Of a DNA stretch of 22,087 nucleotides, positions 1 to 20,736 are shown in pieces (the stretch's first letter is position 1; each line of letters opens with the position of its first letter). Source of the DNA: a virus; IMG/VR virus record IMGVR_UViG_3300021964_000613, positions 1 to 22,087 of that record; one strand, given 5' to 3'. Position numbers and translations under genes: made by a program. Below the pieces are notes generated by a model. That model was not told where the DNA came from, made no database searches, and saw only the letters and a program-made list of their open reading frames with translations.

Positions 1-3000
1 TTACTATTAAAAATCTGGGAAATAAAATTAGAAATAATAATTTAAATCCTAAGGAAATTTTTGCAAATTCTTTTGTATACAATACAAGTGCAAGATACCA
101 AATTGCAAACAATGACACTAACCAATTAGGATCTGATATTGATAAATCCAGTTTAAAGGTTGGGGACGAAGTTGAAATATTGGAAAGAGGATCTGAAATA
201 TCTACAGGAACAAATACATATATTCAAAGTATTGATATCACAGCAAACACTTTAAATCTACAAAACAGACCTAATTTAGATGTTAATAAAAAGTATGATA
301 TAAGAAGAAAATTAAATAAAACAAGTTCTTCAGGATATGAGTTTGAAAGTGGATCTTTAGTATCTGATGTTCTTAATGTATATGTTGATGGTAACAAGTA
401 TGCATATGTCGCATCAAATTCAGTTCCCTCTGAGATAAGAGAATTTGAAGATGAATCTAGAAATATTATAAAAAATTATCGACATGATATTTCATCAGAA
501 CTTAAATCTATTGACATTTCTAGTTCTGAAAATCTTCAGGATGATGTGGTTGAGGGATTGTATAATACTATTTCTATTGATGGAACTGAACATCCATTTT
601 TGACTGGAGATCTTGTATATTATTTTTCAGATGGAGAACCTCTTGTTGGATTAGATACTGGCACATACTATACAGAAAGAATATCGAATAAAAAGTTTAA
701 ACTATTCAATTCTCAAAGTTTAATAGGATCGGAAAATAATCTCAAGTTCCAAATTCCAACGTCTGGAATGGGAACACATACTTTTATTTTAAATTCTCAA
801 AAAGATATTGATCTTGGAATACAAAAACTTTTAAGAAAGTTTCCTTTAGGGAAAAATATTGAAAAAAAATCAGGTACTAATACAGTTCCTGGAACTGTTG
901 GAATGTTAATAAATGGTGTTGAAATTTCTAATTATAAATCAAATGACGTTATTTACTATGGACCTATAGAAGGTGCAAATATATTATCTGGAGGAAGTGA
1001 CTATGATGTAATAAATCCTCCAAATATTAATGTTTCAGTTGGTAATGGTGATGCTGCAAAAATTCAACCAGTTGTTAGTGGAAAATTTGAAAAAGTATAT
1101 GTAGATACTCAAGATTATAATATTGACAAAATTTCCTCTATCGATATTTCCGGAGGAAATGGGTCAGGAGCAATTATTGAGCCTGTATTAGTTAATAGAC
1201 CTAGAGATGTATTATTTAATGCTGATGAATTTTCTGTAGGTGGGGGTGTTAGTGAGAATACTAATCAAATTATATTTTTAACAGATCACAATTTTAAGAA
1301 TGGAGAAGAAATTGTTTATAATTCTTTAGGAAATACTCCAATATTATTAGAAAGTGATAAAGAATTTCCAAATAATTCTACTTATTTTGTCGGAGTTACT
1401 AATAATACAACTATAAAGTTATATTATAATTTGTCCGATCAACAATCTGGAATTAATACCGTCGGCATATATACTGGATCATCTGGAGTACATAGATTTT
1501 CAACACTTTCTTCCAAAAAACAAATTGAATATATAAAAATTATTAATGGTGGAGAAGGATATACTAATAGAAAACTCATTGTCAAATCTTCAGGAATATC
1601 AACATCACAAAATTCTATTAATTTTAAAAATCACGGATTTGGTGATGGAGAGATTGTAGAATATGATTATGAAACCAGTTCAATTTCCGGACTTTCAACA
1701 ACTAATCAATATTATATTTTAAAAATTGATGATGATTCCTTTAGATTATGCAATGCTGGTGTTGGAGGAACAATTTATTCAAATTATGAGAGAAAAAAAT
1801 ATGAAAAATTTGATAGCACAGGATCTGGATATCAGTACTTTAAATATCCAGATATTTCAGTTTCCATCAAATATAATACTGTAGGATTTGGAACTACTAC
1901 ACAATCAAATGAAGAATTAGTTATAACTCCTGTAGTAAAAGGAAGTATTATAGATGCATATGTCTATGAATCTGGAACTGGATATGGATCCACAATATTA
2001 AATTTCAAAAAAAATCCAGTAATTACTGTTCTCAATGGAAAATATGCACAATTAACTCCTAATATTATTGATGGAAAAATTACAGGTGTTTCTATCAGTT
2101 ATGGTGGAAGTGAATATTATTCTACTCCAAATTTATTAGTTTCTGGTTCTGGAACTGGAGCAGAATTGAGATCGATTGTTAGTAATGGACAAATAACTGA
2201 GGTTAAAGTTCTTAATTCTGGAAGTGGATATTCACAATTAGACACAAAAATTAAAGTTATTTCTTCAGGAAAAAATGCATTTATTGACCCACAAATAAGA
2301 AAGTTGACACTTAATGATAATGTAGCAAGGTTTACTGATGGAGAAGTTTTAAGTAAAGGTAAAGATAAATTACAATATTCTGTGTCAAAATATTTTGAAG
2401 ATCTGAGGGATTCTTTCTTGGAAGATGAATCATCGTCTACTAAAATTTCTGGAATTATTGGATGGTCTTATGATGGAAATCCAATTTATGGTCCATATGG
2501 ACATAGTGACCCTTCAGCAGGTACAGGTAAAAAAGCACTCCAATCTGGATACATTCTCAATACATCAAATGTCATAGACAGACCTTCAGGATTTGATGGT
2601 GGATTTTTTGTTGAGGATTATCAATATGACGGAACTGGAGATTTGGATGAATATAATGGCAGATATGAAAAAAATAATGAATATCCAAATGGTGTTTATG
2701 CTTATCATGCAACGATAGATCAATTTCCATATTTTATTGGTAATAAGTACAGGTCAAAATTAATTTCAGATTCTGATTTGAATCAATCATTTGACTTCAA
2801 CAATTCAAATCTATTAAGAAATACTCTTCCATATAAAGTATCAGAAACAGGTGCAGATTATGATTTCTTCAATGAAACCAGTGATATTCTTGACCAAAAA
2901 ATAGAAGTTTTATCAACAACATCAGATTCAATTCAATCTATAGAAATTCAAAATTCTGGAAATAACTATAAAGTTGGAGATACATTAGAATTTGACGAAA

Positions 3001-6000
3001 CCGGAACTTCTGGGAGTGGATTGAATGTTGCAGTTAAATCAATAAAAGGAAGAGATATTGTAGATGTGAGTACTAATTCTACTTCATATCCAGATTCTAT
3101 TTTTACATGGAATTCTTCCGATAAAGTTAAAGTATCAATATTACCAAATCATAATCTTTCAGATAATGATTATATTACAATTTCTGGATTTTCAACAAAT
3201 CTTTCATCTTTAAATGGAACGCATAGAATTTCAGTTCCAAAATATGCAAATGGAAGATGCCTTTCTACCATAAGTTCAGCATCTGCAGGATTTACAACAG
3301 AAATTTATGTCGCACCAATTCCAGAACAAATATCAATAGGCAGTAGTATTGGTATTGGAACAGAAACTCTGAGAGTACTTGGAATATTTAAAAATGAAAA
3401 TATTCTTAGAATTGAAAGAAGTTTATCGGGAGTATCTCATGCAGTTGGTACTGCAGTATCATTCTTACCAGATTCATTTACAATTTCCAAATCTGTAGAT
3501 AAATTTGAATCAAAAATAGATGATAAGGTGTTCTTTAACCCCAGAGAATCTGTTGGAGTTTCAACAATAAATGGAGTTGGATATAGTACATCATTTACTT
3601 TTGGAAATATTTCAACAGTAAATAGAAGTATTCCATCCAAAGGAATTTATATTGACAATCACCCATTTAAAACGAATCAACCTGTTACTTATGTTGTTGG
3701 GACTGGAACAACTTTAATAGTTTCTACTGACGGATTGGTTTCATCAGAAGACTTTATCAATACATTCCCAAATCTGTTTGTCGTTAACAAAAATCCAAAT
3801 CTTATTGGATTAAAGACTTCCATCAATGGTGAAGAATTATATTTCCATTCTAATGGAGATGATAATGACACATATTCATTTGAATCCAATTCAACTCAAA
3901 TATTAGGTAGTATAGAAAAAAATGAGGTTACAGTTTCTGTTTCTACCTCTCATAATCTACAATTGGGTGACAATATAACCTTAAATATTAATCCAAATCT
4001 TTCTGTTGGAATTGGAACTTCTACTGCAGTTCGTGTTGTTTATAAATCGGACATTGATAATATTATAGTCAATCCAATCGAATTTAATTCTTCAGGAATT
4101 GACACAACAACCGATGAAATTACTATCACAGAACATAATTTAAAAACTGGAGATAAAGTTTTATATGAAGATAGTGGATTTGAGGAATATTTTGTATATA
4201 AAGTAGATACTAATAAATTTAAATTATGCGAAACATATTTTGATAGTCAACAAAATCCACCAGTTACTATTGATTTTACTTCATCTGGAGGTTCTTCTCA
4301 ATTTATTTCATTAATAAATCCAGAAATAAATCTAATCAAAAACAATGATTTAGTATTTGATTTATCAGATACATCTTTATCTGGATACAAATTTAAAATA
4401 TTTACTGATAGTGAATTCAATAATGAATTTATTTCTACAGGATCTACAAACACTTTTAATGTATCTGGTGTAGGAACGGTGGGTGTTTCTACTGACGCAT
4501 CATTAACATTAAAATATAGTTCTCAAATTCCGGAAGAACTATATTATACTTTAGAAAAAGATGGAGTATTATTAGATTCTGATACCGAAATTAAAAATTA
4601 TTCCGGCATAAAATATAAAAATAGTACATATGATGGGACATATTCCATTGTTGGAATAGGTACAACTACTTTCAATATAATTATTGATAAAAAACCAGAA
4701 AGTCTTTCATATTCTTCATCCGAATGTGACGTTTTAGAATACTCAACAACATCAACAAATGAATCCGGGCCCGTTAACTCATTCAACATTTTATCAAAAG
4801 GATCTGGATATAAAAAATCACCTATCCTAAAATCAGTAAATTCTGTATCAGGATCAGATTTGATTGTAAATCTTGAATCAAATAAAATTGGATCTATTAA
4901 AGAAACAAAAGTTATAAGTAATAGGTTTACATATTCCTCCGATAAAACATTAAGACCCAAAGTTAATGCATCCCCAAATCTCATATTAAAAGACTTTAGT
5001 ACGATAGATCAAATATCGATTATTAATGGGGGTGATGGATATACAACGGCTCCAACAATTACCATCATAAATTCTACAACAAGAGATGAGATACAATCTG
5101 GATTAATAAATGCAAAAATAACAGGATCTGCAATTTCTTCTATAGAAATTTTAGTACAACCAAAAGGTTTACCTGATGATACTGTAGAGATCTTTACTAC
5201 TAATAATAGCAACGGAATTTCAATTGAAAAAGTTGAATCTATAGATTCGGTAACCTTTGATTGTATAATATCTACTCCAATAGGTGGATTTTCTACACAA
5301 CCATTTTATGCTGGAGATCAAGTTTTTATTGAAGGGATTCAAAAGGTTGATGATGATGGAGATGGTTTCAATTCTTCCGATCTTGGATATAAATTCTTAA
5401 GCGTAGATAGTTATGATGATAGTGAAGTCAATGATAAAGTAAGAATCAGTGTATCTGGACTTACTACAAATACTGGTAATGCGAAAGTAATTCAAGATTT
5501 CAGTGGTGTTATAATTAACAAAACTGATTATCCTACATTTAAAGTATCACAGAAAGAATCTGAATTTTTTATTGGTGAAAAATTATCATCTAATGGAATT
5601 ATTAGAGACTTAGTAGTAGCAAAAAATGAAGAAAATTCCATAAAAGTTTCCGGATTATATGAATTATCTTTAGGAGAAGTTATTACTGGAAATCAATCTG
5701 GCACTATTGCTACAATCGAATCATTACGTATAAATGAAGGATATTTTAATGTTGGATATTCCAATTTAAAAAATATTGGATGGGATAATGAAATTGGCAA
5801 GTTAAGTGAAGATTATCAAGTTTTAGAAAATAATGATTATTATCAAAACTTGTCATATTCTATAAAAAGTTCAATAACATATAATGATCAGCAATCACCA
5901 GTCGAAAATTTAGTTCATACAAGTGGATTGAAAAACTTTGCAGATACTCAAATATCTCAGAATGTAACTGCAGGGACAGAAACAACTGATGATGGTTTTG

Positions 6001-9000
6001 TAGTCATATATGATGTTATTGATGAAAAAAGAGTTGATACTATTAACAATTTTGACAATGTTATTGATGTCAATGTTGTAGATTCAAAATCAAAATCCTT
6101 AAAGTTCCAAAACAAGAAACTTTCCGATTATACGACTTTAAAAAACCTTAATGTTTTAAAGATTGATGATATTAGTGATCAATTTTCAAATTCAGAAGCA
6201 GAAAATACTGAATTTTTAACAATAGAAGAAGTTGATGATGAATTATATTATAATTATTTGATTAGAGTTACTAGTGAAGATAATAGTGAAATTCAATTGA
6301 CTGATATCACAATTCTTAGTGATGGTGTTAACACAACTATTGTCGAAAATGAATCTTTATACAATTCAACATCTCCTTACGGTTCGTTTGATATAGATGA
6401 AAATGAATTTGATGAAACTTTCCTGAAATTTTATCCAAATGACCCATTCAATACAAATTATGATGTAAAAATTATCAGGCAAGTGTTTAATACAACATTT
6501 GCTGGGATAGGAACAACATCCATTGGACTTATCGACTTAACTGGGTCTGTTATTGTAGAAAATACTGTAGTTGGGGTAGGAACAACAACTCTAATTTCAT
6601 TAGATTCTTCAGATGTTAGATCATTATATATTAATACACAAATAATTAATGAAGATACTTTAGAAATGAATTATGTGAGATTGTATATCACACATAATGA
6701 TATAGATTCATTTACGTCAGAATATTATATTGATAATACCTTATCATCCTTTACTGGTGATTTTATAGGAAGCTTCCGTTCAGAGTTAAGTGGAGGAGTT
6801 TTATCTGTATTATATGAAAACGATTCTGAAGAAGAAATTAAAATAAGAAGTAACATTGTTGGATTTGGAACAACTGCTCTTGGAGCAGGAACTTATAGAT
6901 TCAAATCTTCTGATCAATCTGATGGACAAGAACGAAGTGCTACCTATAATGCAACTTATTATTCTACAGTAGGTGCTGCAGTAACAACGGTACATTCGTT
7001 GGATAGTGGATTATTCAATGCTTCAAAATCTTTAGTTCAAGTCAGCATAGGATCCACTAAAGCACTTCATCAAGTTATGATGATTTCTGATGGGACAAAT
7101 GTTTATACTCAACAATTGCCTATTCTTTCAGCATCTAATACTGAATTTTTGGATGATGCTTCAGGAATTGGAACGTTTGGTGGAGAAATATCCGGAGGTA
7201 ATTTATTATTAAAATTCTATCCAGATTCAGAACAAACAGGACAAATTGATATTGAAGTATTTAATAGATCATTGTATTCTGATCTTGATATTCTTAATGA
7301 CTATGATGATTTGACTTATGGATCAGTAACAGAAAGTATTGATGAAAAGTTTTATAATGCTATCAATCTCGATAGAATTAATAAAACCAATTTCAAATTG
7401 ACCAGTGATAATATTCCAATTTTCTCAAAACAATTCAATCCAAATTCAACATCTCTTGTAGCAAATACTGGAATATTTACAATTCCAAATCACTATTTTA
7501 TGACTGGGGAAGAATTAATTTATACTGCCGCTTCATCAATCGTCGGTGTTGCGACTAGTGTAATGGAAACACCAAGTGGAGATTTGCCATCAACAGTATA
7601 TGCAATTAAATTGTCAGAGGATACATTTAAAGTTGCAACAACACTTAATGATGCTCAAAGTGGTATTGGTACAACATTTACTTCATTAGGTGGAGGAAAT
7701 GCTCATAGATTTACTATGGCAAAGAGAAATAGTAAGTGTATCATCACTGTTGATAAGTTAGTACAATATCCCATAGCATTTACAGGAATAGAATATTCTT
7801 TATCTGGCAATGTTGGAGGTTCATTAGGAATTAATACTACTATTGTATCATTATCTGGAATATCTTCAATTAGACCAAGAGATATATTATTAATTGATGA
7901 TGAATATATGGGAGTGACTAATGTTGGATTGGGAACAACGAATATTGGCCCGATTACAAATGTTGGAACTATCAACTTGGTTGAAGTTGATAGAGGATTT
8001 GTTGGATCTTCTGCATCATCTCATACAGATGGTAGTTTAGTCAATGTTTATAGAGGATCATTTAATATTGTCGATGATGAAATTCATTTTTCAGAAGCAC
8101 CTAGAGGCAATCCACAGATTGATAAAACAAAATATAACCTAGATTACGAAACATCATCATTTACTGGTCTGGCATTTCTTAGATCAGATTATAGTGACAA
8201 TAAAGTTTATGATGACATATCCGACCAGTTTACAGGAATTGGTAGAACATTTACATTAACTGTTGGTGGAGCAAATACTACTGGAATTGGAACTTCTGGT
8301 GGAAGTGGTCTTGCTTTCATTAATAGCATTTATCAATCACCAAAAACTCAAAATAATCCATCAGTATTTAATTATGAAATTTTGGAAGATTCTATTGCAG
8401 GAATATCTACTATAGAATTTTCTGGAATTACTAATCCAGATGATCCACTTCAATACATAACTTCAGACTATGATGTTAATGTGAATGAAACTCCAAGAGG
8501 AGGTATCATAGTTTCTTATGGATCCACTCCAGGACTTGGTTTTGCTCCACTTGTAGGTGCTTCTGTAACTGCTGTTGTGGATGTTGGTGGTGCTATCGTA
8601 TCTGTTGGATTAGGAACAACTGATAATCTTGGGTCTGGATATAATGGACTAGTTTCTATTGGAGTAAGTGTTTTTGAAGAGGGACATTCTGGAATTCCAG
8701 CAGAAATAACAGCAACAGTTGGTGCTGGTGGCACATTATCATTTAACATTGATGAACCAGGAACTGGATATACTAATCCACAAATATTTGTATCTGATCC
8801 ATCTTATAAAAATCTTCCTGTTATTGGAGTATCTAGATTGGGAGTTGGAGCAACAACTGAAACTGGAATTGGATTATTGGTAGATCTTAAGGTTGGAGGT
8901 TCTACTGGAATAGGGTCTACTTATTTTGAAGTAACAGAAGTCAAATTCTCAAGACCTGGATATGCATTTAGAAAGGGTGATGTGTTTAAACCTGTCGGAT

Positions 9001-10571
9001 TAGTTACAGACGCTTCACTTTCTTCTCCATTATCAGACTTTACAATCACTGTAGTTGATACATATACCGATAGCTTTGCTGCTTGGGAGTTTGGAGAACT
9101 TGATTATATTGATTCTATTAAAGAATATCAAAATGGAACAAGAACTAGATTCCCATTATTCTACAATTCAGAACTTCTTAGTATAGAACCCGAAGAAAAT
9201 TCTGCAATTGAGAAAAATATTAATAATGTATTAATAATTTTCATTAACGGCATTATTCAAGAACCGGTAACTAACTACATATTTGAAGGTGGGACCTCAT
9301 TTGCATTTACAAAGGCTCCATTGCCAGAAGACGATATTGAAATTTATTTTTACAGAGGTACTAAAGGAGTTGATTCCGAAAGTGAAGATGTAAAAACAAC
9401 TATAGAAAGAGGTGATATTGTCCAAGTTATTAGCAATAACATATATCCCGACACAATAACACAGGATGAAAGAACAGTTTACGATATATCATCTTCTGAT
9501 ACTATTGAAACTAATCGATATTTTGGACTTGGAATTGATGAAACAATTTACAAACCTGTTTCTTGGACAAAGCAAAAAACTGAAAGAAAAATTAATGGTG
9601 AATATGTCTATAAGTCAAGAGATTCTTTAGAAGCAGTAATACATCCTGTTGCAAGAATTATTAAAGACGTATCTACATCTGATACTGAAGTGTTTATTGA
9701 AAACTCTGAACTGTTTAGTTATGAAACAGATAATGGATATACTGATAACTCCACACCATGCGATGGATTAATTATTGAAAATACAAATCCAATTACTGCT
9801 ACATTTACTGCCACAATTGGTGGTGGTGCGGTTAGTGGTATAACCACGACTAATCCAGGTTTTGGATATCTCCCAGATCAAACCACTATAGAGTTGAAAT
9901 TTACTTCTCCGGTAGGTGTAGGAACAACTGCTACAGCAACAGCATCAGTTACTGCTGGGGTTGTTACTTCAGTCACTATTACAAATCCTGGATCTGGATA
10001 TACGGTTGCCCCTACTATATTTGCAGAAACACCAAATCTCAATATTGAAAAAATTACAGGATTTACTAATATTGAAGGATTCTCAGGTATTGTAACTGGA
10101 ATTACAACAACTACAGGAACAGGAGGAAATCCATTAGCACTTCAATTCACGATTGCCAGCAATAACTTTACTGGATTATCAACTGGATATCCTATTTACA
10201 TCTATGATACTCAAATTGGTAGTGGAGTTACATCAATCAATAGTTCAGATTCTGAAATTGTTGGTATCGGAACCACATGTTTAGACAATATATATTATAT
10301 CTCAGATTGGTCTTATAGTTCTACAATAGGAATCTTAACTTGTAATGTAAAATCGGATTCTAATATAATCGGAATTGGGACAACTGGAAATGCATCAAAT
10401 CCAGTCGGAAAATATTCATGGGGAAGATTATCTGGAGGAACAAGATCCTCAAGTCCAATATCTATCGGAGTTACTGGAAATATTGTTTCTGGTCTTTCAA
10501 CATACCCAACGATTCAAAGAAGAGGAATTGGAATTAGAAAAACTGGAGCACTTCCCAAAATTGAAATATAA
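1..10571 (+). CDS. Giant modular virion structural protein in the gene 7 position, YHYH domain, 5' partial
   Basis: The reading frame is open from the first complete codon (position 3) to TAA at 10569-10571, giving 3522 residues with the start outside the window. An apparent TTG start at 180 is only an artefact of the cut. The protein lies directly upstream of gp8, where T4 has baseplate wedge gene 7 (about 1030 residues), so a baseplate wedge or tail-periphery role is inferred from position and beta-rich composition. Visible parts in order: about eight His-Asn/Gly/Pro-Phe/Leu...Gly-Asp modules, clusters of GxGY repeats, a YHYH-type domain (2451-2760), a block of three ~125-residue repeats (6289-7275), and a C-terminal region (about 9060-9760) with an Asn-Gly-x-x-Gln fibre-type motif and the least repetitive sequence. 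There is no signal peptide or membrane segment in the visible part. Virion structural protein is near certain; homology to gp7 itself is unproven. Confidence 0.85.
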   Translation, partial: TIKNLGNKIRNNNLNPKEIFANSFVYNTSARYQIANNDTNQLGSDIDKSSLKVGDEVEILERGSEISTGTNTYIQSIDITANTLNLQNRPNLDVNKKYDIRRKLNKTSSSGYEFESGSLVSDVLNVYVDGNKYAYVASNSVPSEIREFEDESRNIIKNYRHDISSELKSIDISSSENLQDDVVEGLYNTISIDGTEHPFLTGDLVYYFSDGEPLVGLDTGTYYTERISNKKFKLFNSQSLIGSENNLKFQIPTSGMGTHTFILNSQKDIDLGIQKLLRKFPLGKNIEKKSGTNTVPGTVGMLINGVEISNYKSNDVIYYGPIEGANILSGGSDYDVINPPNINVSVGNGDAAKIQPVVSGKFEKVYVDTQDYNIDKISSIDISGGNGSGAIIEPVLVNRPRDVLFNADEFSVGGGVSENTNQIIFLTDHNFKNGEEIVYNSLGNTPILLESDKEFPNNSTYFVGVTNNTTIKLYYNLSDQQSGINTVGIYTGSSGVHRFSTLSSKKQIEYIKIINGGEGYTNRKLIVKSSGISTSQNSINFKNHGFGDGEIVEYDYETSSISGLSTTNQYYILKIDDDSFRLCNAGVGGTIYSNYERKKYEKFDSTGSGYQYFKYPDISVSIKYNTVGFGTTTQSNEELVITPVVKGSIIDAYVYESGTGYGSTILNFKKNPVITVLNGKYAQLTPNIIDGKITGVSISYGGSEYYSTPNLLVSGSGTGAELRSIVSNGQITEVKVLNSGSGYSQLDTKIKVISSGKNAFIDPQIRKLTLNDNVARFTDGEVLSKGKDKLQYSVSKYFEDLRDSFLEDESSSTKISGIIGWSYDGNPIYGPYGHSDPSAGTGKKALQSGYILNTSNVIDRPSGFDGGFFVEDYQYDGTGDLDEYNGRYEKNNEYPNGVYAYHATIDQFPYFIGNKYRSKLISDSDLNQSFDFNNSNLLRNTLPYKVSETGADYDFFNETSDILDQKIEVLSTTSDSIQSIEIQNSGNNYKVGDTLEFDETGTSGSGLNVAVKSIKGRDIVDVSTNSTSYPDSIFTWNSSDKVKVSILPNHNLSDNDYITISGFSTNLSSLNGTHRISVPKYANGRCLSTISSASAGFTTEIYVAPIPEQISIGSSIGIGTETLRVLGIFKNENILRIERSLSGVSHAVGTAVSFLPDSFTISKSVDKFESKIDDKVFFNPRESVGVSTINGVGYSTSFTFGNISTVNRSIPSKGIYIDNHPFKTNQPVTYVVGTGTTLIVSTDGLVSSEDFINTFPNLFVVNKNPNLIGLKTSINGEELYFHSNGDDNDTYSFESNSTQILGSIEKNEVTVSVSTSHNLQLGDNITLNINPNLSVGIGTSTAVRVVYKSDIDNIIVNPIEFNSSGIDTTTDEITITEHNLKTGDKVLYEDSGFEEYFVYKVDTNKFKLCETYFDSQQNPPVTIDFTSSGGSSQFISLINPEINLIKNNDLVFDLSDTSLSGYKFKIFTDSEFNNEFISTGSTNTFNVSGVGTVGVSTDASLTLKYSSQIPEELYYTLEKDGVLLDSDTEIKNYSGIKYKNSTYDGTYSIVGIGTTTFNIIIDKKPESLSYSSSECDVLEYSTTSTNESGPVNSFNILSKGSGYKKSPILKSVNSVSGSDLIVNLESNKIGSIKETKVISNRFTYSSDKTLRPKVNASPNLILKDFSTIDQISIINGGDGYTTAPTITIINSTTRDEIQSGLINAKITGSAISSIEILVQPKGLPDDTVEIFTTNNSNGISIEKVESIDSVTFDCIISTPIGGFSTQPFYAGDQVFIEGIQKVDDDGDGFNSSDLGYKFLSVDSYDDSEVNDKVRISVSGLTTNTGNAKVIQDFSGVIINKTDYPTFKVSQKESEFFIGEKLSSNGIIRDLVVAKNEENSIKVSGLYELSLGEVITGNQSGTIATIESLRINEGYFNVGYSNLKNIGWDNEIGKLSEDYQVLENNDYYQNLSYSIKSSITYNDQQSPVENLVHTSGLKNFADTQISQNVTAGTETTDDGFVVIYDVIDEKRVDTINNFDNVIDVNVVDSKSKSLKFQNKKLSDYTTLKNLNVLKIDDISDQFSNSEAENTEFLTIEEVDDELYYNYLIRVTSEDNSEIQLTDITILSDGVNTTIVENESLYNSTSPYGSFDIDENEFDETFLKFYPNDPFNTNYDVKIIRQVFNTTFAGIGTTSIGLIDLTGSVIVENTVVGVGTTTLISLDSSDVRSLYINTQIINEDTLEMNYVRLYITHNDIDSFTSEYYIDNTLSSFTGDFIGSFRSELSGGVLSVLYENDSEEEIKIRSNIVGFGTTALGAGTYRFKSSDQSDGQERSATYNATYYSTVGAAVTTVHSLDSGLFNASKSLVQVSIGSTKALHQVMMISDGTNVYTQQLPILSASNTEFLDDASGIGTFGGEISGGNLLLKFYPDSEQTGQIDIEVFNRSLYSDLDILNDYDDLTYGSVTESIDEKFYNAINLDRINKTNFKLTSDNIPIFSKQFNPNSTSLVANTGIFTIPNHYFMTGEELIYTAASSIVGVATSVMETPSGDLPSTVYAIKLSEDTFKVATTLNDAQSGIGTTFTSLGGGNAHRFTMAKRNSKCIITVDKLVQYPIAFTGIEYSLSGNVGGSLGINTTIVSLSGISSIRPRDILLIDDEYMGVTNVGLGTTNIGPITNVGTINLVEVDRGFVGSSASSHTDGSLVNVYRGSFNIVDDEIHFSEAPRGNPQIDKTKYNLDYETSSFTGLAFLRSDYSDNKVYDDISDQFTGIGRTFTLTVGGANTTGIGTSGGSGLAFINSIYQSPKTQNNPSVFNYEILEDSIAGISTIEFSGITNPDDPLQYITSDYDVNVNETPRGGIIVSYGSTPGLGFAPLVGASVTAVVDVGGAIVSVGLGTTDNLGSGYNGLVSIGVSVFEEGHSGIPAEITATVGAGGTLSFNIDEPGTGYTNPQIFVSDPSYKNLPVIGVSRLGVGATTETGIGLLVDLKVGGSTGIGSTYFEVTEVKFSRPGYAFRKGDVFKPVGLVTDASLSSPLSDFTITVVDTYTDSFAAWEFGELDYIDSIKEYQNGTRTRFPLFYNSELLSIEPEENSAIEKNINNVLIIFINGIIQEPVTNYIFEGGTSFAFTKAPLPEDDIEIYFYRGTKGVDSESEDVKTTIERGDIVQVISNNIYPDTITQDERTVYDISSSDTIETNRYFGLGIDETIYKPVSWTKQKTERKINGEYVYKSRDSLEAVIHPVARIIKDVSTSDTEVFIENSELFSYETDNGYTDNSTPCDGLIIENTNPITATFTATIGGGAVSGITTTNPGFGYLPDQTTIELKFTSPVGVGTTATATASVTAGVVTSVTITNPGSGYTVAPTIFAETPNLNIEKITGFTNIEGFSGIVTGITTTTGTGGNPLALQFTIASNNFTGLSTGYPIYIYDTQIGSGVTSINSSDSEIVGIGTTCLDNIYYISDWSYSSTIGILTCNVKSDSNIIGIGTTGNASNPVGKYSWGRLSGGTRSSSPISIGVTGNIVSGLSTYPTIQRRGIGIRKTGALPKIEI
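573..4310 (+). repeat. Dispersed 'H-N-F-x-x-G-D' beta modules (seven copies in this stretch)
   Basis: Seven related segments share a beta strand, then His followed by Asn/Pro/Gly and Phe/Leu, then often Thr/Asn/Asp-Gly-Asp/Glu and a hydrophobic-x-Tyr strand. The longer copies end in a phrase like TYYxxxIxxxxFKL. The conserved His codons are at 591, 1287, 1632, 3150, 3660, 3951 and 4134. An eighth copy is at 7491 in the same gene, and a weak one at 17906 in the DUF4815 protein. The pattern resembles the FCCH-like beta domains often annotated in phage tail proteins (named after the ubiquitin-activating E1 FCCH domain). That family link is from memory of the pattern; the repetition itself is read directly from the sequence. 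Confidence 0.65.
2451..2760 (+). other. YHYH-type domain within the giant structural protein
   Basis: This is residues 817 to about 919 of the visible protein. It opens with GWSYDGNPIYGPYG, continues through a Gly/Tyr/Asp-rich stretch (FDGGFF, DEYNGRYE) and ends with GVYAYHATIDQFPYFIG, with Tyr-Ala-Tyr-His at 2697-2708. This arrangement (DGNPIYGPYG, then a YxYH signature, then FPYFIG) is that of the YHYH family, which is known mainly from secreted bacterial proteins and is also found in large marine phage structural proteins. The family's biochemical role is not established. The conserved Tyr, His and Asp residues would allow metal or ligand binding, but that is inference. Confidence 0.75.
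6289..7275 (+). repeat. Three tandem ~125-residue repeats in the giant structural protein
   Basis: Three consecutive segments share the same plan. Each has a strand ending in Ser-Asp-Gly or an equivalent (SDGVNTT at about 6317, THNDIDS at about 6691, SDGTNVY at about 7086). A Thr/Ser-rich loop follows, then a Gly-Ser-Phe or Gly-Gly strand, then a 'gly-x-LxLxFYP' strand (KFYPND, SVLYEND, KFYPDS), and finally a short strand of the type DxKIIR, EIKIRS or DIEVFN. The linkers between them carry GIGTT or GFGTT phrases and a Leu-x-x-Asp-Ser phrase. The period is about 375-400 bases. The copies have diverged strongly at the DNA level, so the duplication is old. Confidence 0.6.
9225..9365 (+). other. 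Fibre-type 'V-x-x-N-G-x-x-Q-x-P' beta domain near the C-terminus
   Basis: The segment reads as a hydrophobic strand, Ile-Asn-Gly-Ile-Ile-Gln-Glu-Pro, then Asn-Tyr with an aromatic strand, 'FAFTKAPLPEDD' and 'IEIYFYRG'. This is the plan seen in many phage tail fibre and baseplate proteins (function name not established): NG-x-x-Q, then YxxxG, then xFxxAPxxGD, then a final strand. A looser copy lies at about 8300-8450 (FINSIYQSP, then NYEILED, then IEFSG). It marks the C-terminal third as tail-periphery material. Confidence 0.55.
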
Positions 10572-10604: not shown

Positions 10605-12122
10605 ATGGCTGCATTCGTAACAGATCAATTTAGAATATTGAATGCTGGTTCCTTTGTAGAGTCTATCAGTAATAATTCTTATTATGCATTTTTAGGACTA
10701 TCAAATCCAACTGCGACTGGATTTGGCAGAACTGATAATTGGAATACTAGTTCAGCAAATAATCCAGTAGATAATTTTCAATATTTATCTCATTATAGGG
10801 ATACAAGTCTTTTTGGCAAAAAAATACCTGCAGATAATGCTAGAAGAGTTGTAAGAAAGGTTGAATGGATTTCAGGAAATTCTTATGATATGTATAGGCA
10901 TGATTATAGACAAGGAAATTCATCTCCAGTCAGTAAAACGGTTAGATTGTATGATGCAAATTATTATGTAATAACAAGTGAATTTAAAGTTTATATTTGC
11001 ATTGATAATGGTTCTTCTGGATTAAATCCAACTGTAGCAGCATCTTCACTTGAACCAAACCACACTGATGTAGAACCAGTTAAATATTCTGATGGATATA
11101 GATGGAAATATTTGTTTAGAATTTCTCCATCAGATGTTATTAAATTTGATTCTACAGAGTATATTGTAATCCCAAATAATTGGACAACAACTACAGATTC
11201 TGAAATTGAAATAATAAGAGATGGTGGGAATTCTGAAAGTAATAATAATCAAATAAAGAAAGTATATATTGAAAATGTTGGGGCTGGATATACTAACCAA
11301 ACTGCGAATATTTTAGGTGATGGTGAGGGTGGACAAGTTTCTATAGTAACGACAAATGGTGTTATAACTGATGTTGTTGTAACTCAAGGTGGAAGAGGAT
11401 ATACTTATGGTATTATTGATCTACCCAATACATCAAATCCGGCAAAATTAATTCCAATTATTCCTCCATCAAAGGGACATGGGTATGATATCTATCAAGA
11501 ATTAGGTGCAGATAAAGTGCTCATTTATGCAAGATTTGATGACTCTACTAAAGATTTTCCAATAGATACAAAATTTTCACAAGTTGGAATTATAAAAAAT
11601 CCAGAAACATTTTCGGAAACAAATGTATCAACAGGAACAACTTTTACGGGAAGTACTTTTTCATCATTATATTCTGTTGCATTGACAGAATCTAGAAATG
11701 TAGTAATTGGAGAAGAAATACAACAAAATCAAGGTAATGATATTATAGCTAAAGGATACGTTGCTTCTTTTGATAAAGAAACTAAAATTCTTAAGTATTA
11801 TCAAGATAGGTCATTGTGCTTTGGTAATAAAAATGACCAAACAGAAAGTCTTGAGACTAAAAATATTGCAAAATTTGTCAATAACAAAGAAATATCTTTT
11901 ATATCTTCTGGAGGATCTAATGGAGTAGTTGATACTAATGTAAATGGTAATGTGATGACACTCAATTTAAAACAGATTAATTTGGGAGTTACATTTACAA
12001 ATGGACTTGCAAATCCAGAGATAAATAAAAAGACAGGGGATATAATTTATATTGATAATAGACCCGTTGTTCAGAGAGACTCTAGACAAAAAGAAGACGT
12101 TAAAATCATTCTGGAATTCTAA
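10605..12122 (+). CDS. 8: Baseplate wedge protein gp8
   Basis: This protein is a structural subunit of the baseplate wedge, where T4 gp8 dimers bridge gp7, gp6 and gp10. It has 505 residues, against 334 in T4. Matches to gp8 as I recall it include an N-terminal 'TDQFRILN' strand, SDGYRWKYLFRI followed by EYIVIP (residues 162-190), FSQVGIIKNP (324-333), and the C-terminal GDIIYIDNRPVV ending in KIILEF (478-505), closely paralleling the T4 terminus. Residues about 216-290 carry two GxGYT repeats (GAGYTNQ, GRGYTYG) with no counterpart in T4 gp8, which explains part of the extra length. The ATG follows a late promoter; the ribosome site is weak. The downstream DUF4815 gene follows after 5 bases. 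The identification is strong. Confidence 0.93.
   Translation: MAAFVTDQFRILNAGSFVESISNNSYYAFLGLSNPTATGFGRTDNWNTSSANNPVDNFQYLSHYRDTSLFGKKIPADNARRVVRKVEWISGNSYDMYRHDYRQGNSSPVSKTVRLYDANYYVITSEFKVYICIDNGSSGLNPTVAASSLEPNHTDVEPVKYSDGYRWKYLFRISPSDVIKFDSTEYIVIPNNWTTTTDSEIEIIRDGGNSESNNNQIKKVYIENVGAGYTNQTANILGDGEGGQVSIVTTNGVITDVVVTQGGRGYTYGIIDLPNTSNPAKLIPIIPPSKGHGYDIYQELGADKVLIYARFDDSTKDFPIDTKFSQVGIIKNPETFSETNVSTGTTFTGSTFSSLYSVALTESRNVVIGEEIQQNQGNDIIAKGYVASFDKETKILKYYQDRSLCFGNKNDQTESLETKNIAKFVNNKEISFISSGGSNGVVDTNVNGNVMTLNLKQINLGVTFTNGLANPEINKKTGDIIYIDNRPVVQRDSRQKEDVKIILEF
11250..11474 (+). repeat. GxGYT beta-repeat inserted in gp8
   Basis: Residues about 216-290 of gp8 read as two units of strand-'GxGYT'-strand-'Gly-Gly/asn-Gly', separated by a TTNGVITDVVV strand. 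The same unit occurs many times in the giant upstream protein (for example at about 2100-2240, 5023-5052 and 9984-10012) and once or twice in the downstream DUF4815 protein (about 17505-17660). It lies between the EYIVIP segment and the GHGYDIYQELGA segment, both of which look like ordinary gp8. Confidence 0.65.
12020..12027 (+). promoter_or_regulatory. Possible late promoter inside the end of gp8
   Basis: GATAAATA fits the looser NATAAATA late promoter form and lies 100 bases before the start of the DUF4815 gene. It is within coding sequence of an AT-rich genome, lacks the TCTAAA extension of the two good elements, and could easily be chance. Confidence 0.25.
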
Positions 12123-12127
12123 AAAAG

Positions 12128-15100
12128 ATGGCACAAAAAACCGACTTAAATATCAGTCCTTATTATGACGATTTTGATAAGGATAAAAACTTTTATAAGG
12201 TTTTATTTAAACCAGGATATCCAGTTCAAGCTAGAGAACTGACAACCTTACAGTCTATTTTACAAAATCAAGTAGAGACTTTTGGAAGTAATATATTTAA
12301 AGAAGGTTCTATGGTCCTTCCAGGATCTATAACTTTTGATAATGATTATTCTGCAGTCAAATTAAATTCATCAAATCTTGGAGTAGATATTTCAATCTAT
12401 ATTAAGAATTTTATTGGAACAACCATAACAGGAAGATCATCTGGAGTTAGTGCTACAATCAAAAATGTTGCATTAACAACTGACAGTGATTTAGTAGAAT
12501 ACGTTACAATTTATGTAAAATATTCAGCAGCAGGAAATAATTCCGAAACAATATCTTTTCAAGATGGGGAACAGTTAATTGCAAGTCAAAATGTAGTATA
12601 TGGAAATACTACCATTACTGCAGGAACTCCATTTGCTTCTTTGATAGAATTGAATGCAACATCTACAGGATCTGCAGCTTCTATTGATGATGGAGTTTAT
12701 TTTGTAAGGGGAAACTTTGTAAATGTTTCTAAGCAGACTCTTATATTAGATTATTATACAAATACCCCATCATATAGAGTTGGTTTAAAAATATCAGAAA
12801 CTATTGTTAATGCAAAAGATGATGAATCATTATATGATAATGCAAAAGGATTTACCAATTTTGCTGCACCAGGAGCTGATAGATTTAAAATAGATTTAAC
12901 TCTAATAAAAAAATCAATATCTGATTTTAATGATACCGATTTTATAGAAATTCTTAGAGTTGATGATGGAAAAATTAAAAAAATCGTCAACAAATCAATT
13001 TATAACTTAATTAGAGATTATATTGCAGAAAGAACTTTTGATGAGTCTGGACATTATACTGTCGATGAATTTAGATTAAATATTGCCAATTCTCTGAATG
13101 ATAGAATAGATAATGATGGCATATTTTTAGAGAATGAGACTACAGAACAGGGAAATATACCATCAGATGATTTAATGTGTGTTCAGGTATCTCCTGGAAA
13201 AGCATATGTTGCTGGATATGATGTCAAATTAGATGCAACAGCAACAATTGACGTAGAAAATCCAAGAGACACTCAAAATGTTTCAAACATTAATGTTCCT
13301 TTTGAGATGGGACATCTTTTGAGGGTGAATAATGTTGCAGGAGCACCAGAAGAAAATGAAACTATTGAGTTAAAAAGTCAATTTAAAGGTGATACTCCAC
13401 AAACTATAGGACAAGCAAGAGTATATACTTTCAATTTAACAGATGCTGCATATTCTGATGCAACAACTCAATGGGACTTATATCTATACGATATTCAGAC
13501 ATACACCAACTTAACATTTAACAGAAGTGTAACCGGCACAGAAATTCGTAAAACTTCTTTTATAAGAGGAAAAAGTAGTGGTGCAAGTGGATATGCAGTT
13601 GCTGCAGGCAGTGGCACATCTTTAAATATCTATCAAACATCAGGAACTTTTGTTGCTGATGAGCAGGTGACAATTAATGGTGTTGATACTGCATTGAGTA
13701 TTAAAGAGTTTACTGTTTATGGAATTAGAGATATTAAATCCGTTTCTCAAACTGGACTAGTTTCAACTCCATTTACTGCAGATACTGTTCTGAGTAGAAA
13801 GAAAATTCAAGGAATTAGTCAAGTTAGTATTGCAGGAACTACTTTAACAAGTCCAGGAAAACTTTTTACTGGCATTAAGGTTGGGGATGTTGTTAAATAT
13901 CAGGATGGAACAAATTTAAGATATAATAGAGTTGATAGTATATCAGGAAATTTAGTATCAATAGCAGTAACTTCAATTAACACTGTGTCTGGAGTTTTTG
14001 AAGGTGGTATTGGATCAAATGGAACTTACAATATTGAACTTGCAGTTCCAGAACTAAGAAATAGTGAGAATGCATTTTTATATGCAAATCTTCCAGATTT
14101 CAACATTTCTTCAGTCAATCTTTCAGATTCTCAACTTTCTGTAACTAGACAAATCAGACCTTTAACTATTTCTGGAAATTCAGTAACATTTAACTTATCC
14201 AGTGTAACTGGAATTACTAGTGCATCATTTGAAGCATTTGATCAAGAAAGATATTCTGTACACTATAATAGTGGTGGAATTGGAACAATTACATCCGATT
14301 CCTTCTTTTTAAGTGGAAATGATGTAACTATTACAGGATTGGATAATGGTAGCAATGTTGTTGTAAATGCAACTCTCAAAAAGAATGGTATTCAAAGTAA
14401 AATCAAAAAATATACAAGAAGTGCTTTAAATATTGTAAATCTTTCTACTCTTGCTCGTTCTGGTGCTGCAACTAGTGATTCAATTAATGACGGTTTAACT
14501 TTCAATCCATATTATGGTCTTAGAGTTCAAGATGATCAAATTTCTCTAAATGTTCCTGATGTTTCTAAAGTTCTTGCAGTATACGAATCTACAAATACTT
14601 CAGACCCAACTTTAGATAGAATTCAATTTCCTATAATATCCCAAGTTGATACTGACGCAATTATAGGTGAAGATATTATTGGTTCTGATAGTGGAGCATT
14701 AGCAAGAATTGTCACAAAACCATCTTCAAATAATCTTGGTATTGTATATCTTAATGATAAAAAATTATCTGTTGGAGAAAACGTAACTTTCAAAGAGTCA
14801 AATATAGTTTCTACACTTGAACAAATAACTCTCGGAAAATATAAAAATATCACGAATAATTTTACCCTAGATAAAGGTCAAAGAGATGAGTATTATGATT
14901 ATTCAAGGTTAGTTAGAGTTGGTTCTCAAATACCTGAGAGAAGAATCTTGGTAGTTTATGACCATTATACTGTACCATCATCTGATAATGGGGATGTATT
15001 TACTGTTCTTAGTTATGATGCTGACAGGTTCTCCGAGGATATTCCAAATATAGGTCCCAGAAATATTAGAGCATCCGATACTCTCGACTTTAGACCAAGA

Positions 15101-18100
15101 GTACAGAATTTTATAGTAACAACAACATCATCACCATTTGATTTTAGTTCAAGAAACTTTGGAACAGATCCAAAGTTTGTGTTAAAGCCTGGTGAAGGAT
15201 CTTTAATTGGGTATGATTTTTATCTGCCAAGAATTGATAGGGTATATCTTGATAAATTTGGAAGTGTTATTGTCAGAAAGGGAATTTCTTCTATAGAACC
15301 AGTTCCACCAGCAAATGAAGATCCCAATTTGATGCAGTTGGCAGAAATTAGTCTTCCTGCATATTTGTATAATGTAGATGATGCTTCTATTAATATGATA
15401 GATAATAGAAGATATACTATGAGAGACATTGGTACTCTGGAAGACAGAATTGAAAATCTTGAGAGAGTTACTTCTTTAAGTTTATTAGAACTTAATACAG
15501 AATCTTTAAGAATAGAAGATTCTCAAGGAAATAATAGATTTAAGAGTGGAATATTTGTAGATGATTTCAATGATAAATCACTATCTGATAATAATTTAAC
15601 AACTGCCAATATTATTGGAGGTGAACTTAGACCATTTGCTACAAGAAATTCTTTACAACAGAGACCTATTCCTGCAATAGAAATTGCAGAAAATGAGTTA
15701 GATTTAACAGAAAATTATGATCTATTGGATCCAAATGTACAAAAGACTGGTAATGTTATCACTTTAAAATATGATTCTATAGATTGGTTAAGTCAATCTT
15801 TTGCAACACAAGTTGAAAATGTAAATCCATTTCATGTTGTTGAATATAATGCTCTGGTCAAACTTTCACCAGATACTGATACCTGGGTGAGAACCTTAAA
15901 ACTTCAACCAAGAATTATTGAAAGAAATGTTCGAAGAACTATTAGAGGAAGAAGAAACGAAACAAGAGTAGATGTAGGTTCAAATACCGAAACGGTCTTT
16001 GTTTCTTCAGGAACAGAAAAATATATTCGTTCAAGAAACGTTTCATTTTTTGGAACTCTTTTTAGACCTCTTGCAAGACATTATCAATTCTTAGATAATC
16101 ATAGCAATTTAGATTTTATTCCAAAACTTATTGAAATTGCAAATTCTTCCACCTTACAGAATTATGGATCTTCTAATGGAGCATTCCAAATTGGGGAAAC
16201 TATAAGGGTATTTAATGGTGAAAATAGAATAGGAACATTTAGATTAGCATCATCAAATCATAAAACAGGAAAATTCAATTCCCCAACAACAACTTATTCT
16301 ACCAATCCATACATAACTTCAGAATCCATACCCTCTGGATATAGTCAGTCTTCAAAGACTATAAACATTGATTTAAATTCTTTGTCTTCTGAAGCACAAG
16401 GAGACTTTAGTGGATATATTGAAAAGGGTGCAAAGATAGTTGGTCAGACTAGCGGAGCAATTGCATACGTAAAAGATTTAAGACTCATTTCTGATGTTAA
16501 TGGATCTTTGTTTGGATCATTTTTTATCAAAGATCCACACACAAATCCAGCACCAAATCCAAGAATTTTTACTGGTAAGAAAACTTATAGGTTAAGCAGT
16601 AGTTCCACAAATGAAACTCCATTACCAGGAAGTACTCTTATTTCTTCCGGTACTGCGACTTATACTGCGAATGGAACTTTCCGATCGTTCCAAGATGTAA
16701 CTACAATTACTACAACTACTACTACTAGAGTAAGAAGAAAAGATCCATTAGCCCAAACTTTTACTGTTGGTAGAGACATTGAGGCTCCGGACTTCAGTGG
16801 AGATAATGATGATGATAATGGAGTATTCTTGACAGAACTAGATCTGTTTTTCGCATCAAAACCGAGTGGAAATCAACCACTTACAGTTCAAATAAGAACT
16901 GTTCAACTAGGAATTCCAACTTTGAATTCTATTGGAGAATCTAAAACTTTATCTCCAATTGAAATCCAAACTTCATCTAATGGAAACACTGCAACTAGAG
17001 TAAAATTTGATTATCCAATTTATCTTGCTCCAGGACAAGAATATGCAGTAGTTTTACTTGCCCCAAATTCGGATCAATATGAGGTTTGGACTGCAAAAAT
17101 GGGAGAGAAAACTATTGATACTCAGAGTTTACCAGATTCTGAGGCAATAATATATTCAAAACAATTTGCACTTGGAAGTTTATTCAAGTCTCAAAATGGA
17201 TCTACATGGACTCCTGCACAAGAATCTGATCTTAAATTTAAACTCTATAAAGCAAGATTTGCATCAAATATCGGTATCGTACATTTTGGCAACCCTCCAC
17301 TTGATGAGAGTAATGGATATGTCCCAACTCTACAAAATAATGCCCTTACAGCACTACCAAAAAATGTAACTCTTGGAATTACTACAATTTCTTCTGGAGA
17401 TTCATTACTCAATATTTTAACTTCCGGAAGAAGAATTGCAGGTGCAGGAAACTCTTTTGGAACTATTGTTTCTACAGGAAGTTCTGTTTCTGGAATCACG
17501 ACAACGAATGCAGGTACAGGTTACACATCTCGTAGTAATGTTTCTACTCTTAATGTTTTTGGTCAGGGAACCAATTTGACATTGGATATTGACTCTATCG
17601 ATTCCGATGGTGCTATTACTGGTTTATCGATAAACAATCCTGGAAATGGATATCAAGAAGGTGATATTATTACCATTGAAAATGGATCAAATGAAACTGG
17701 AAGAGATGCTATTATTACAATATCTCAAATTAATGGTATTGACACATTATATCTTACTAATGTTCAAGGATCAATTCCGACTGGTCCATTAGTTTATTAT
17801 GATACAGATTCCACAACTGTCTCTCTAGCATCGACAAATGTTACAAGTTCAACCCCAGATTCTGAATTAAATTCTGGAAATTATTTGCAGGTTCAGCATT
17901 TTAATCATGGGATGTATGCAAACAACAATAAAGTTAAGTTAAACGATATTGAATCTGATACTGCACCATCTACTTTAAGGACAAGTATTGATTTTACAAC
18001 TGGATTGGGTGGATTCATTCAGGTTGAAGATTCTTCAGTGTTCGAAACTTTTGAGGGACAACCAGTAAGTGCAACAAATTTGGGATATATTAAAATTGGA

Positions 18101-19249: not shown

Positions 19250-19449
19250 CAAAATTAATTAAAGTTAAAGATCATCCTCATCTTTATCGAGATGGGGATA
19301 CCGGTGCCATCATTAATTACGATACTTTAGGTTATAATCAACGAATTAAAAGAATTGAGTCTCAAAAATCTCAAAAAGAAGAGTTGGATGATATGAAACG
19401 TGATATTGAAGAAATAAAATCTTTACTTAAAGATTTTCTGAATAAATAA
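19246..19449 (+). CDS. Small 67-residue protein with charged helical C-terminus
   Basis: Its ATG overlaps the stop of the DUF4815 gene (ATGA), which suggests translational coupling and co-production with that protein. The N-terminal half reads KVKDHPHLYRDGDTGAIINY, a compact phrase of the type seen in small conserved proteins next to tail genes of marine T4-like phages. The C-terminal 35 residues are rich in Glu, Lys and Asp with Leu/Ile/Met at heptad-like spacing (LDDMKRDIEEIKSLLKDFL), predicting an amphipathic helix or coiled coil. There is no signal peptide or membrane segment. I do not recognise a named T4 counterpart. A small baseplate or assembly partner is possible from context only. 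The gene itself is secure: it is tightly spaced, starts by overlap, and fills an otherwise empty stretch. Confidence 0.8.
   Translation: MTKLIKVKDHPHLYRDGDTGAIINYDTLGYNQRIKRIESQKSQKEELDDMKRDIEEIKSLLKDFLNK
19441..19448 (+). promoter_or_regulatory. Weak late-promoter-like site at the end of the small gene
   Basis: AATAAATA matches the NATAAATA form and overlaps the stop codon of the 67-residue gene, 28 bases before the much better TATAAATA element. It is probably chance in AT-rich DNA, but it could give a second start for the downstream operon. Confidence 0.2.
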
Positions 19450-19843: not shown

Positions 19844-20736
19844 TGCCAGAAATAAGAGCTAGAGTCGGATCTCAAAATGTAGTTCGTGTTTTATCAAATG
19901 CATCTTCTCCTCCGTCAAATTTAATCGATTTAAGAGATGTAAATAGTAATTTTAAAACTGAAGATGGGATGATCCTTGTTTGGGATTTACCATCCCAAAA
20001 ATTTATAATGACAAGTGTCATTGATTCTTCATCTTCAACAATTAGTGGAATTGCTTATTATACAAATACTACTGATAATGTTTTAGGGGATCCAAACTCC
20101 GGTGCAGTTCAAATTGATGGTGGAGTTGGGATTAATAAAAATCTTACTGTTGGCAGTGGATTAAACGTATTTGGATTATCAACCTTTTCTTCTAATGTTG
20201 ATATCAATGCATCAGTTGACATTTCTAACGATGTAGTTGTTGGTGGTGGACTAACTGTAAACGGAACATCAGAATTTATTGGAAGTGCTATCTTTAGAGG
20301 AGGCACTATTGGGATTGGTGATTCTGTAAGTGATGATATTAATGTTTCTGGTGAATTTATATCTAATTTAGTTCCAAATACAGATAATACTTATGATCTT
20401 GGTATTACATCTCAGAGATGGAGAAATGGTCTATTTTCTGGATTAGTAACTACCACCAATTTATATGTATCTGGCATATCTACTTTTGCAAATAATTTAG
20501 ATATTTCCGGTGATTTAAATATTGTTGGATTTGTATCAGTTACTGAAGGTCTTTATTATGATAATGAATATGATGGACCCAATGGTATTGCATTTTTTGA
20601 TAATAATGGAAAATTGACTGGAGCAGCTAGTACAGAGTCTGCAATTGATACAAGTAACTATATATTAACAACACTAGAAACAGCAGGAATAGGAACTCCT
20701 GTATGGACAAGCACTATTGATGGAGGAGAATACTAG
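19843..20736 (+). CDS. Tail-fibre-like beta-helical protein (297 residues)
   Basis: Residues about 1-85 form an N-terminal domain (RARVGSQNVVRVLS, then DGMILVWDLPSQKF). Residues 85-230 are short irregular beta repeats rich in Gly, Asn, Val and Ser (GGVGINKNLTVGSGL, then VVVGGGLTVNGTSEF and similar), typical of intertwined trimeric fibre shafts. Residues 180-200 contain NTYDLGITSQRWRNGLFSG, a landmark common in phage fibre proteins. The C-terminus ends in PVWTSTIDGGEY. It sits where T4 carries gene 12 (short tail fibre) and wac (whisker), but shows no similarity in plan to the wac coiled coil. Host-contact or neck-fibre function is inference. It has AGGAG at 19828-19832, overlaps the upstream stop by one base, and itself overlaps the gp13 start. 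Confidence 0.8.
   Translation: MPEIRARVGSQNVVRVLSNASSPPSNLIDLRDVNSNFKTEDGMILVWDLPSQKFIMTSVIDSSSSTISGIAYYTNTTDNVLGDPNSGAVQIDGGVGINKNLTVGSGLNVFGLSTFSSNVDINASVDISNDVVVGGGLTVNGTSEFIGSAIFRGGTIGIGDSVSDDINVSGEFISNLVPNTDNTYDLGITSQRWRNGLFSGLVTTTNLYVSGISTFANNLDISGDLNIVGFVSVTEGLYYDNEYDGPNGIAFFDNNGKLTGAASTESAIDTSNYILTTLETAGIGTPVWTSTIDGGEY
20722..20728 (+). promoter_or_regulatory. Strong ribosome binding site supporting the GTG start of gp13
   Basis: GGAGGAG lies 7 bases before the GTG at 20736 and is the best Shine-Dalgarno sequence in the window. It sits inside the last codons (Gly-Gly-Glu) of the fibre-like gene. The next in-frame ATG is about 70 codons in, past conserved gp13 sequence, so GTG is the start. 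The strong site may compensate for the weaker GTG codon. Confidence 0.8.

Follow-up and report, generated by a model that had tools for sequence, protein, structure and literature searches.

Introduction

The question raised by the stretch of DNA considered here (the window: 22,087 nucleotides, the entire IMG/VR contig IMGVR_UViG_3300021964_000613) is what kind of protein occupies the slot of gene 7 in a T4-like phage when the ORF directly before gp8 encodes at least 3522 residues. An initial annotation, made from the sequence alone, had identified this giant as the occupant of the gene 7 slot, and considered it not settled by the sequence whether it is an inflated gp7, a fusion of gp7 with fibre domains, or a replacement. 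Among marine viruses, T4-like cyanophages and pelagiphages rank with the most abundant; we know of no baseplate structure for them, and none was found in the literature. A published statement holds that cyano- and pelagimyophages lack gp7 and carry the protein VrlC in its stead (PMC7029224).

The analysis described below indicates that the ORF is, very probably, an orthologue of T4 gp7 whose core is split around a large insertion, the inserted and appended modules perhaps serving as outer baseplate; the choice of an inflated gp7 is based on the homology of two core segments, their order and position, the existence of bridging proteins, synteny, and the graded spacing between the segments.

Gene Order and Integrity of the Reading Frame

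The window derives from a T4-like cyanophage near S-SKS1, the 3′ part of the gp7 gene being 77% identical at the DNA level. The gp7 frame (3..10571, + strand; PHROG 2885) extends without interruption between base 3 and a stop at 10571, comprising 3522 codons, and is open at the 5′ end because the contig starts there, exactly as first described. In the relative L011, gp7 is complete (3939 aa), starts 1 nt after gp6 and is 97.1% identical over the part present in the window; therefore, about 417 N-terminal residues, core segment 1 included (see below), lie upstream of the window. Gene order in the relatives is gp25-gp6-gp7-gp8, with gp7 beginning a few nt past gp6 (PF21379, PHROG 219), and in every complete relative the ORF before the giant is gp6, so that the separate upstream gp7 that the initial annotation had asked about is not found in them. 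The slot is thus flanked by gp6 in the relatives and, in the window, by gp8 (10605..12122, + strand; PF09215, PHROG 438), followed by VrlC, a DUF4815 protein of 2373 aa (12128..19249, + strand; PF16075, PHROG 358). A 67-aa ORF at 19246-19449 overlaps the VrlC stop, and ORFs of similar size at this place are annotated as "virion structural protein" in S-SKS1 and S-T4. Further 3′ are found a small fibre-assembly protein, a 297-aa fibre-like ORF, an ORF (20736-21575) which can be assigned to gp13 by synteny with S-SKS1, and gp14. While in T4 gp9-gp12 and wac lie between gp8 and gp13, here only VrlC and three short ORFs are present, an arrangement in keeping with a baseplate periphery carried by gp7 and VrlC.

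A giant ORF might also be a polyprotein cut after synthesis, or an artefact joining separate genes. The gene of S-SKS1, which is broken into four or more ORFs that differ in frame, could be taken in favour of this; however, the frame breaks of that record are found also in VrlC and look like sequencing errors, and uninterrupted versions of the gene occur in many independent contigs and isolates. Moreover, the S-SZBM1 orthologue (S-SZBM1_208, directly after gp6 and carrying both core segments) has been reported as one 724-kDa product, with 71 peptides from purified virions identified by mass spectrometry (PMC9146016, Table 1), though the peptide coverage of 13.5% is too low to speak firmly against cleavage. 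Taken together, an origin of this kind is very improbable; as to the window itself, an assembly artefact was ruled out by the intact complete versions (3865-4133 aa) present in several independent contigs. In the S-SKS1 record (L001:5857-18243, 19808-27167), gp7 and VrlC are each distributed over several frames and are intact in all relatives; these breaks are probably sequencing errors.

The gp7 Core: Segment 1

Core segment 1, corresponding to T4 residues ~645-861 (the helical part and domain V), constitutes the extreme N-terminus of the protein in the complete relatives; for the window phage, which lacks that part in the contig, it is deduced from relatives 91-97% identical to the window gp7 where they overlap. 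A profile of the gp7 proteins of T4, Aeh1 and Vibrio phage F86 matches the marine N-termini in profile-profile comparison (Prob 93.7, E 2e-7), and with Melnitz, phiM12 and Syn1 added hhalign gives Prob 96.8 and E 2.5e-10, T4 724-841 being aligned to 190-342. The independently built PHROG 2885 finds T4 gp7 at 730-758 (E 1e-4). The two families are bridged by gp7 proteins of ordinary size: that of phiM12 matches both the T4 family (E 1e-10; PHROG 964, E 9e-7) and the cyanophage family (E 7e-13; PHROG 2885, E 2e-21), and HTVC008M (E 9e-34) and Desulfovibrio phage 7757 (E 8e-27) provide further links.

This relationship surfaced only through profile-profile comparison, bridging gp7s and Foldseek. 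Pfam Gp7_helical, Gp7_5th and Gp7_6th match neither the relatives' N-terminal part nor the window; a PDB sequence search with the N-terminal alignment and an NCBIfam search of the N-terminal part gave no match; and the Pfam profile PF21871 matches nothing anywhere, controls included, and is uninformative. The C-terminal 1200 residues, which the initial annotation had proposed for a search against gp7, turned out to be the wrong place: the T4 gp7 profile has no significant match there, and a PDB sequence search no match to T4 gp7; the homology resides instead in the ~340 N-terminal residues beyond the contig end and in core segment 2. The architecture also differs from the Straboviridae type, in which a decoration of about 640 residues precedes the core, since the core of the relatives begins at residue ~1. 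In S-SZBM1 (L129:8728-28587) and S-RIM2 (L045:3143-22279), about 500 extra residues separate the first helices of segment 1 from its "FYxxKG" helix.

Structural comparison points in the same direction. Although AlphaFold modelled residues 1-750 poorly overall (pLDDT 52), the single PDB match of the model below E 1e-3 in Foldseek is 5iv5_BJ (E 4e-4), which we take to be gp7, as this 1004-residue chain of the T4 baseplate is not known to fit any protein but gp7, and the gp7 sequence is among those listed for entry 5iv5. As to a predicted fold unrelated to baseplate wedges, which the initial annotation had named as refuting its reading, the best PDB match of the N-terminal model is T4 gp7. VIA-align pairs model residues 237-407 with residues 762-853 of 5iv5_BJ (Z 7.8, 89 residues, 3.3 A), a range collinear with the sequence match and in agreement with Pfam gp7 domain V at 766-861; since this Z is no higher than that of unrelated rows and the match involves a small part of the model, it is to be regarded as support and not as proof. 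F1-ATPase and other small-barrel matches in the fold comparison were set aside as common-fold hits. Model residues 308-376 (beta module A), inside the range matching domain V, form a small barrel that in the model looks like an insertion within domain V. The model of residues 2344-3522 is uninformative (mean pLDDT 34).

The gp7 Core: Segment 2 and Graded Spacing

Core segment 2, C-terminal of segment 1, is present in the window itself, at 5796..5981 (+ strand; residues 1932-1993, "...ENNDYYQNLSYSIKSS...VENLVHTSGLKNF..."; profile E 2e-7), and corresponds to the T4 region following domain V (~841-907, "...RSRSYYVMKIKSNLPSSRWKSDVIRFVHPVGF"). The profile, for which only T4, Aeh1, Desulfovibrio phage 7757, Melnitz and HTVC008M were used, with no reversed control below 0.14, finds one place in the window and one main place in every relative, the weakest matches being those of S-T4 (E 7e-5) and Sf-CH5 (E 4e-5).

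Segment 2 lies 107-115 residues beyond the "FYxxKG" motif of segment 1 in T4, Aeh1 and F86, and 136 beyond it in Desulfovibrio phage 7757; this spacing takes intermediate values in Melnitz (420), HTVC008M (554), phiM12 (836) and Syn1 (1615), and reaches 2149 in L011, 2262 in P-SSM2, 2748 in S-RIM2 and 2819 in S-SZBM1. Small gp7s extend 20-290 residues past segment 2, giants 1400-3040, and the protein of the window phage about 1530.

These observations bear on the proposal that an unrelated giant, or VrlC (PMC7029224), has replaced gp7. In its favour it may be noted that a plain phmmer search of the window part does not find T4 gp7 in the PDB, and that the T4 gp7 family profile has no significant match in the window part. 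On the other hand, both core segments, in the right order, occur in every complete relative, the two families are joined by gp7s of normal length, and VrlC, when searched by profile for segments 1 and 2, contains neither, sharing only a beta module with gp7; replacement is thus scarcely credible. The ORFs following gp6 in HTVC008M and Melnitz-1 can likewise be assigned to gp7, by core homology and position. Because the post-gp6 protein of HTVC008M is gp7 and VrlC is without the core segments, the published statement of a gp7 absence and a replacement by VrlC (PMC7029224) is not upheld. PHROG 3465 names the same HTVC008M/Melnitz-1 ORF "head closure Hc2", a label which, given this assignment, looks wrong; the HTVC008M ORF (L048:19436-22486) is annotated as "putative structural protein" and that of Melnitz-1 (L039:11515-14205) as "hypothetical protein".

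Beta Modules and Duplicated Block

The recurring beta modules noticed at first sight are real: sliding profiles of gp7 give 57 secondary matches at E<1e-3 in gp7, gp8 and VrlC, compared to 0-2 matches in shuffled or reversed target controls, while BLASTP of gp7 against itself reveals no repeats. Module A ("STKGFP..GLLKIDDEIITYTG") occurs twice in the N-terminal region that precedes the window, where it interrupts the core itself, and once in VrlC. Its barrel in L011 (gp7 residues 73-124) matches "tail tube B" of Skadi-1 and Skadi-6, unrelated podophages of Pelagibacter (E 2e-3, with 50% identity over 52 residues), hinting that module A may circulate widely as a tail module.

Modules B ("H.F.TGE.V.Y...FKL") and C ("GGxGY..P.I.V") occupy the insertion together with the C-terminal region, all copies being identified on the + strand by sliding profiles. 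Module B occurs at 558..809 ("...TGDxVYY...FKLY"), 1248..1529 ("DHNFKNGEEIVYN...TIKLYYN"), 1605..1760 ("NHGFGDGEIVEYD...SFRLCN"), 4008..4235 (more than one copy, "TSHNLQLGDNI...EHNLKTGDKVLYE...KFKLCE") and 7467..7724 ("NHYFMTGEELIYT...TFKVAT"); module C occurs at 1029..1196 ("SGGxGY...P.I.V"), at 2019..2285 (again in copies, recurring in gp8, residues 179-268, and in VrlC, residues 1778-1863), at 4971..5168 ("INGGDGYTTAPTITI") and, in the C-terminal third, at 8571..8873 (residues 2857-2957) and 9774..10124 (residues 3269-3374, "NPGSGYTVAPTIF"). VrlC thus shares both modules A and C with gp7, and gp8 shares module C.

A block described as triplicated proved to be a duplication, the two copies (6570..6857, residues 2190-2285, and 6969..7259, residues 2323-2419, "GGNLLLKFYPDSE"; both + strand) being linked by profile at E 1e-4; a possible third, diverged copy at 6255..6452 (+ strand, residues 2085-2150) is weak, reaching E 0.04 only.

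Conservation and the Role of the Extra Residues

The view that ordinary unique structural sequence is confined to the C-terminal third was not confirmed: this third also bears two copies of module C, and conservation, like dN/dS (about 0.24), stays even from one end of the ORF to the other, indicating purifying selection. Close relatives, L122 among them, lack the segment 9774-10046, which bears a module C copy. Over its final 175 residues L122 gp7 shows 100% identity to the window (10044-10568), against about 78% for the remainder, a sign of what may be a recent recombination near the gp7-gp8 junction. The missing segment and the jump in identity point to module gain, loss and recombination; modules appear to have been gained, lost and exchanged among gp7, gp8 and VrlC.

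According to a different explanation, a gp7 core has been fused to receptor-binding (fibre or adhesin) domains, so that the ~3500 extra residues mainly bind the host and a YHYH domain cuts or binds envelope polymers. Some modules do resemble, in the fold comparison, the small beta barrels of tail and tailspike proteins. Receptor-binding tips are usually hypervariable, whereas the extra part is collinear among relatives and evenly conserved, mostly at 56-79% identity per 100 residues; the same modules are found in gp8 and VrlC, and the Pfam search gives no fibre or lectin family.

The YHYH domain reported in the initial annotation is confirmed (2412..2735, + strand; residues 804-911, as placed by PF14240 and ortholog alignment): its PF14240 match (E 2e-20) scores 73.8 bits against a curated cut-off of 25. 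Such domains have been predicted to be tail-associated metal-dependent hydrolases, with histidines and an aspartate at the proposed metal site (PMC7824862), and are listed among possible host-recognition domains (PMC7029224), roles that would favour receptor binding; yet the signature histidines are not conserved, reading YAYH in the window and YAYF in L034 and S-SRM01. In this comparison, which covered the signature motif only, their erosion makes the hydrolase role (PMC7824862) doubtful for the YHYH domain of the window. On balance, the fusion with receptor-binding domains is unlikely.

Proposed Architecture and Its Meaning

We are thus left with the inflated gp7, the answer picked by the evidence among the three initially considered; the identity of the protein, the order of its core and the position of the segments may, on sequence grounds, be taken as established. 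In T4, where six gp7 copies are present in the baseplate, the peripheral layer is made of the gp7 N-terminal domains and other proteins. T4 gp7 is the wedge protein joining a pair of gp6 chains, and the (gp6)2-gp7 heterotrimer comprises a three-helix bundle and a trifurcation domain (PMC6300606). In the protein of the window phage, segment 1 (helices and Pfam gp7 domain V) is, judging by the relatives, N-terminal, segment 2 follows ~2150 residues on, and ~1530 residues come after it; the core would pack against a pair of gp6 chains in the T4 manner, and the beta modules, whether inserted or appended, would project outward to form a peripheral baseplate layer, possibly carrying fibres or host-contact surfaces. 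The outward-facing role of the modules is the weakest step of this scheme, and could equally well prove right or wrong. The complete gp7 of the window phage type has a mass of 428 kDa; assuming six copies as in T4, these would amount to 2.6 MDa, compared to 0.72 MDa for T4 gp7.

More tentatively, and with somewhat less chance of holding than of failing, it may be proposed that accretion of modules into one loop of the wedge core gave rise to the outer baseplate of Kyanoviridae and related phages, a module pool shared by gp7, gp8 and VrlC having replaced T4 gp9-gp12, with the stepwise intermediates (spacing ~110-2800) still living. Placing the gp7 core corrects the published claim of a missing gp7 (PMC7029224), pinpoints ~400 residues of a ~430-kDa chain as the part expected in the wedge bundle, and makes available a graded natural series for studying baseplate growth.

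Comparison with Known Systems

The size of the protein, singled out at first as remarkable, is ordinary for its family: cyanophage gp7s in the databases span 3274-6619 aa, one having been seen in virions, and annotated gp7s measure 3895 (S-SRM01), 4749 (S-T4), 4878 (Sf-CH5), 5195 (P-SSM2), 6378 (S-RIM2) and 6619 aa (S-SZBM1). Giant gp7s being already known in cyanophages, the informative part is the position of the core and its splitting; the protein is an inflated gp7, family-ordinary in size and informative in architecture. It is a full-length member of PHROG 2885 ("baseplate wedge subunit", 4179 positions; 2921 bits, best stretch 419-3327, reaching 4178 C-terminally), and its C-terminal third matches 101 phage records, mostly annotated as gp7 or "baseplate wedge initiator".

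With the cyanophage gp7s of PHROG 2885 (P-SSM2, S-SRM01, S-T4, S-SKS1; 3895-5195 aa), the window protein, ~3940 aa if complete, shares family over the whole length and gene order, with no essential difference; S-SKS1 gp7 is about 75% identical to it in the C-terminal third. S-SZBM1_208 and S-RIM2 gp7 likewise carry both core segments in the same slot, but are larger, their first insertion, inside segment 1, being about 500 residues longer. In the gp7s of HTVC008M (a Pelagibacter phage; 1016 aa), Melnitz-1 (a Methylophilales phage; 896 aa) and phiM12 (a Sinorhizobium phage; 1007 aa), segment 1 is also N-terminal and an insertion precedes segment 2, whereas the spacing is 420-836 as compared to about 2150 residues and there is little C-terminal extension. 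Finally, T4 gp7 (1032 aa; PDB 5IV5, 5HX2) has a homologous core and occupies the same gp6-gp8 slot, but its motif and segment 2 are only ~107 residues apart, and its core is C-terminal (643 onward) and is preceded by about 640 residues of other domains.
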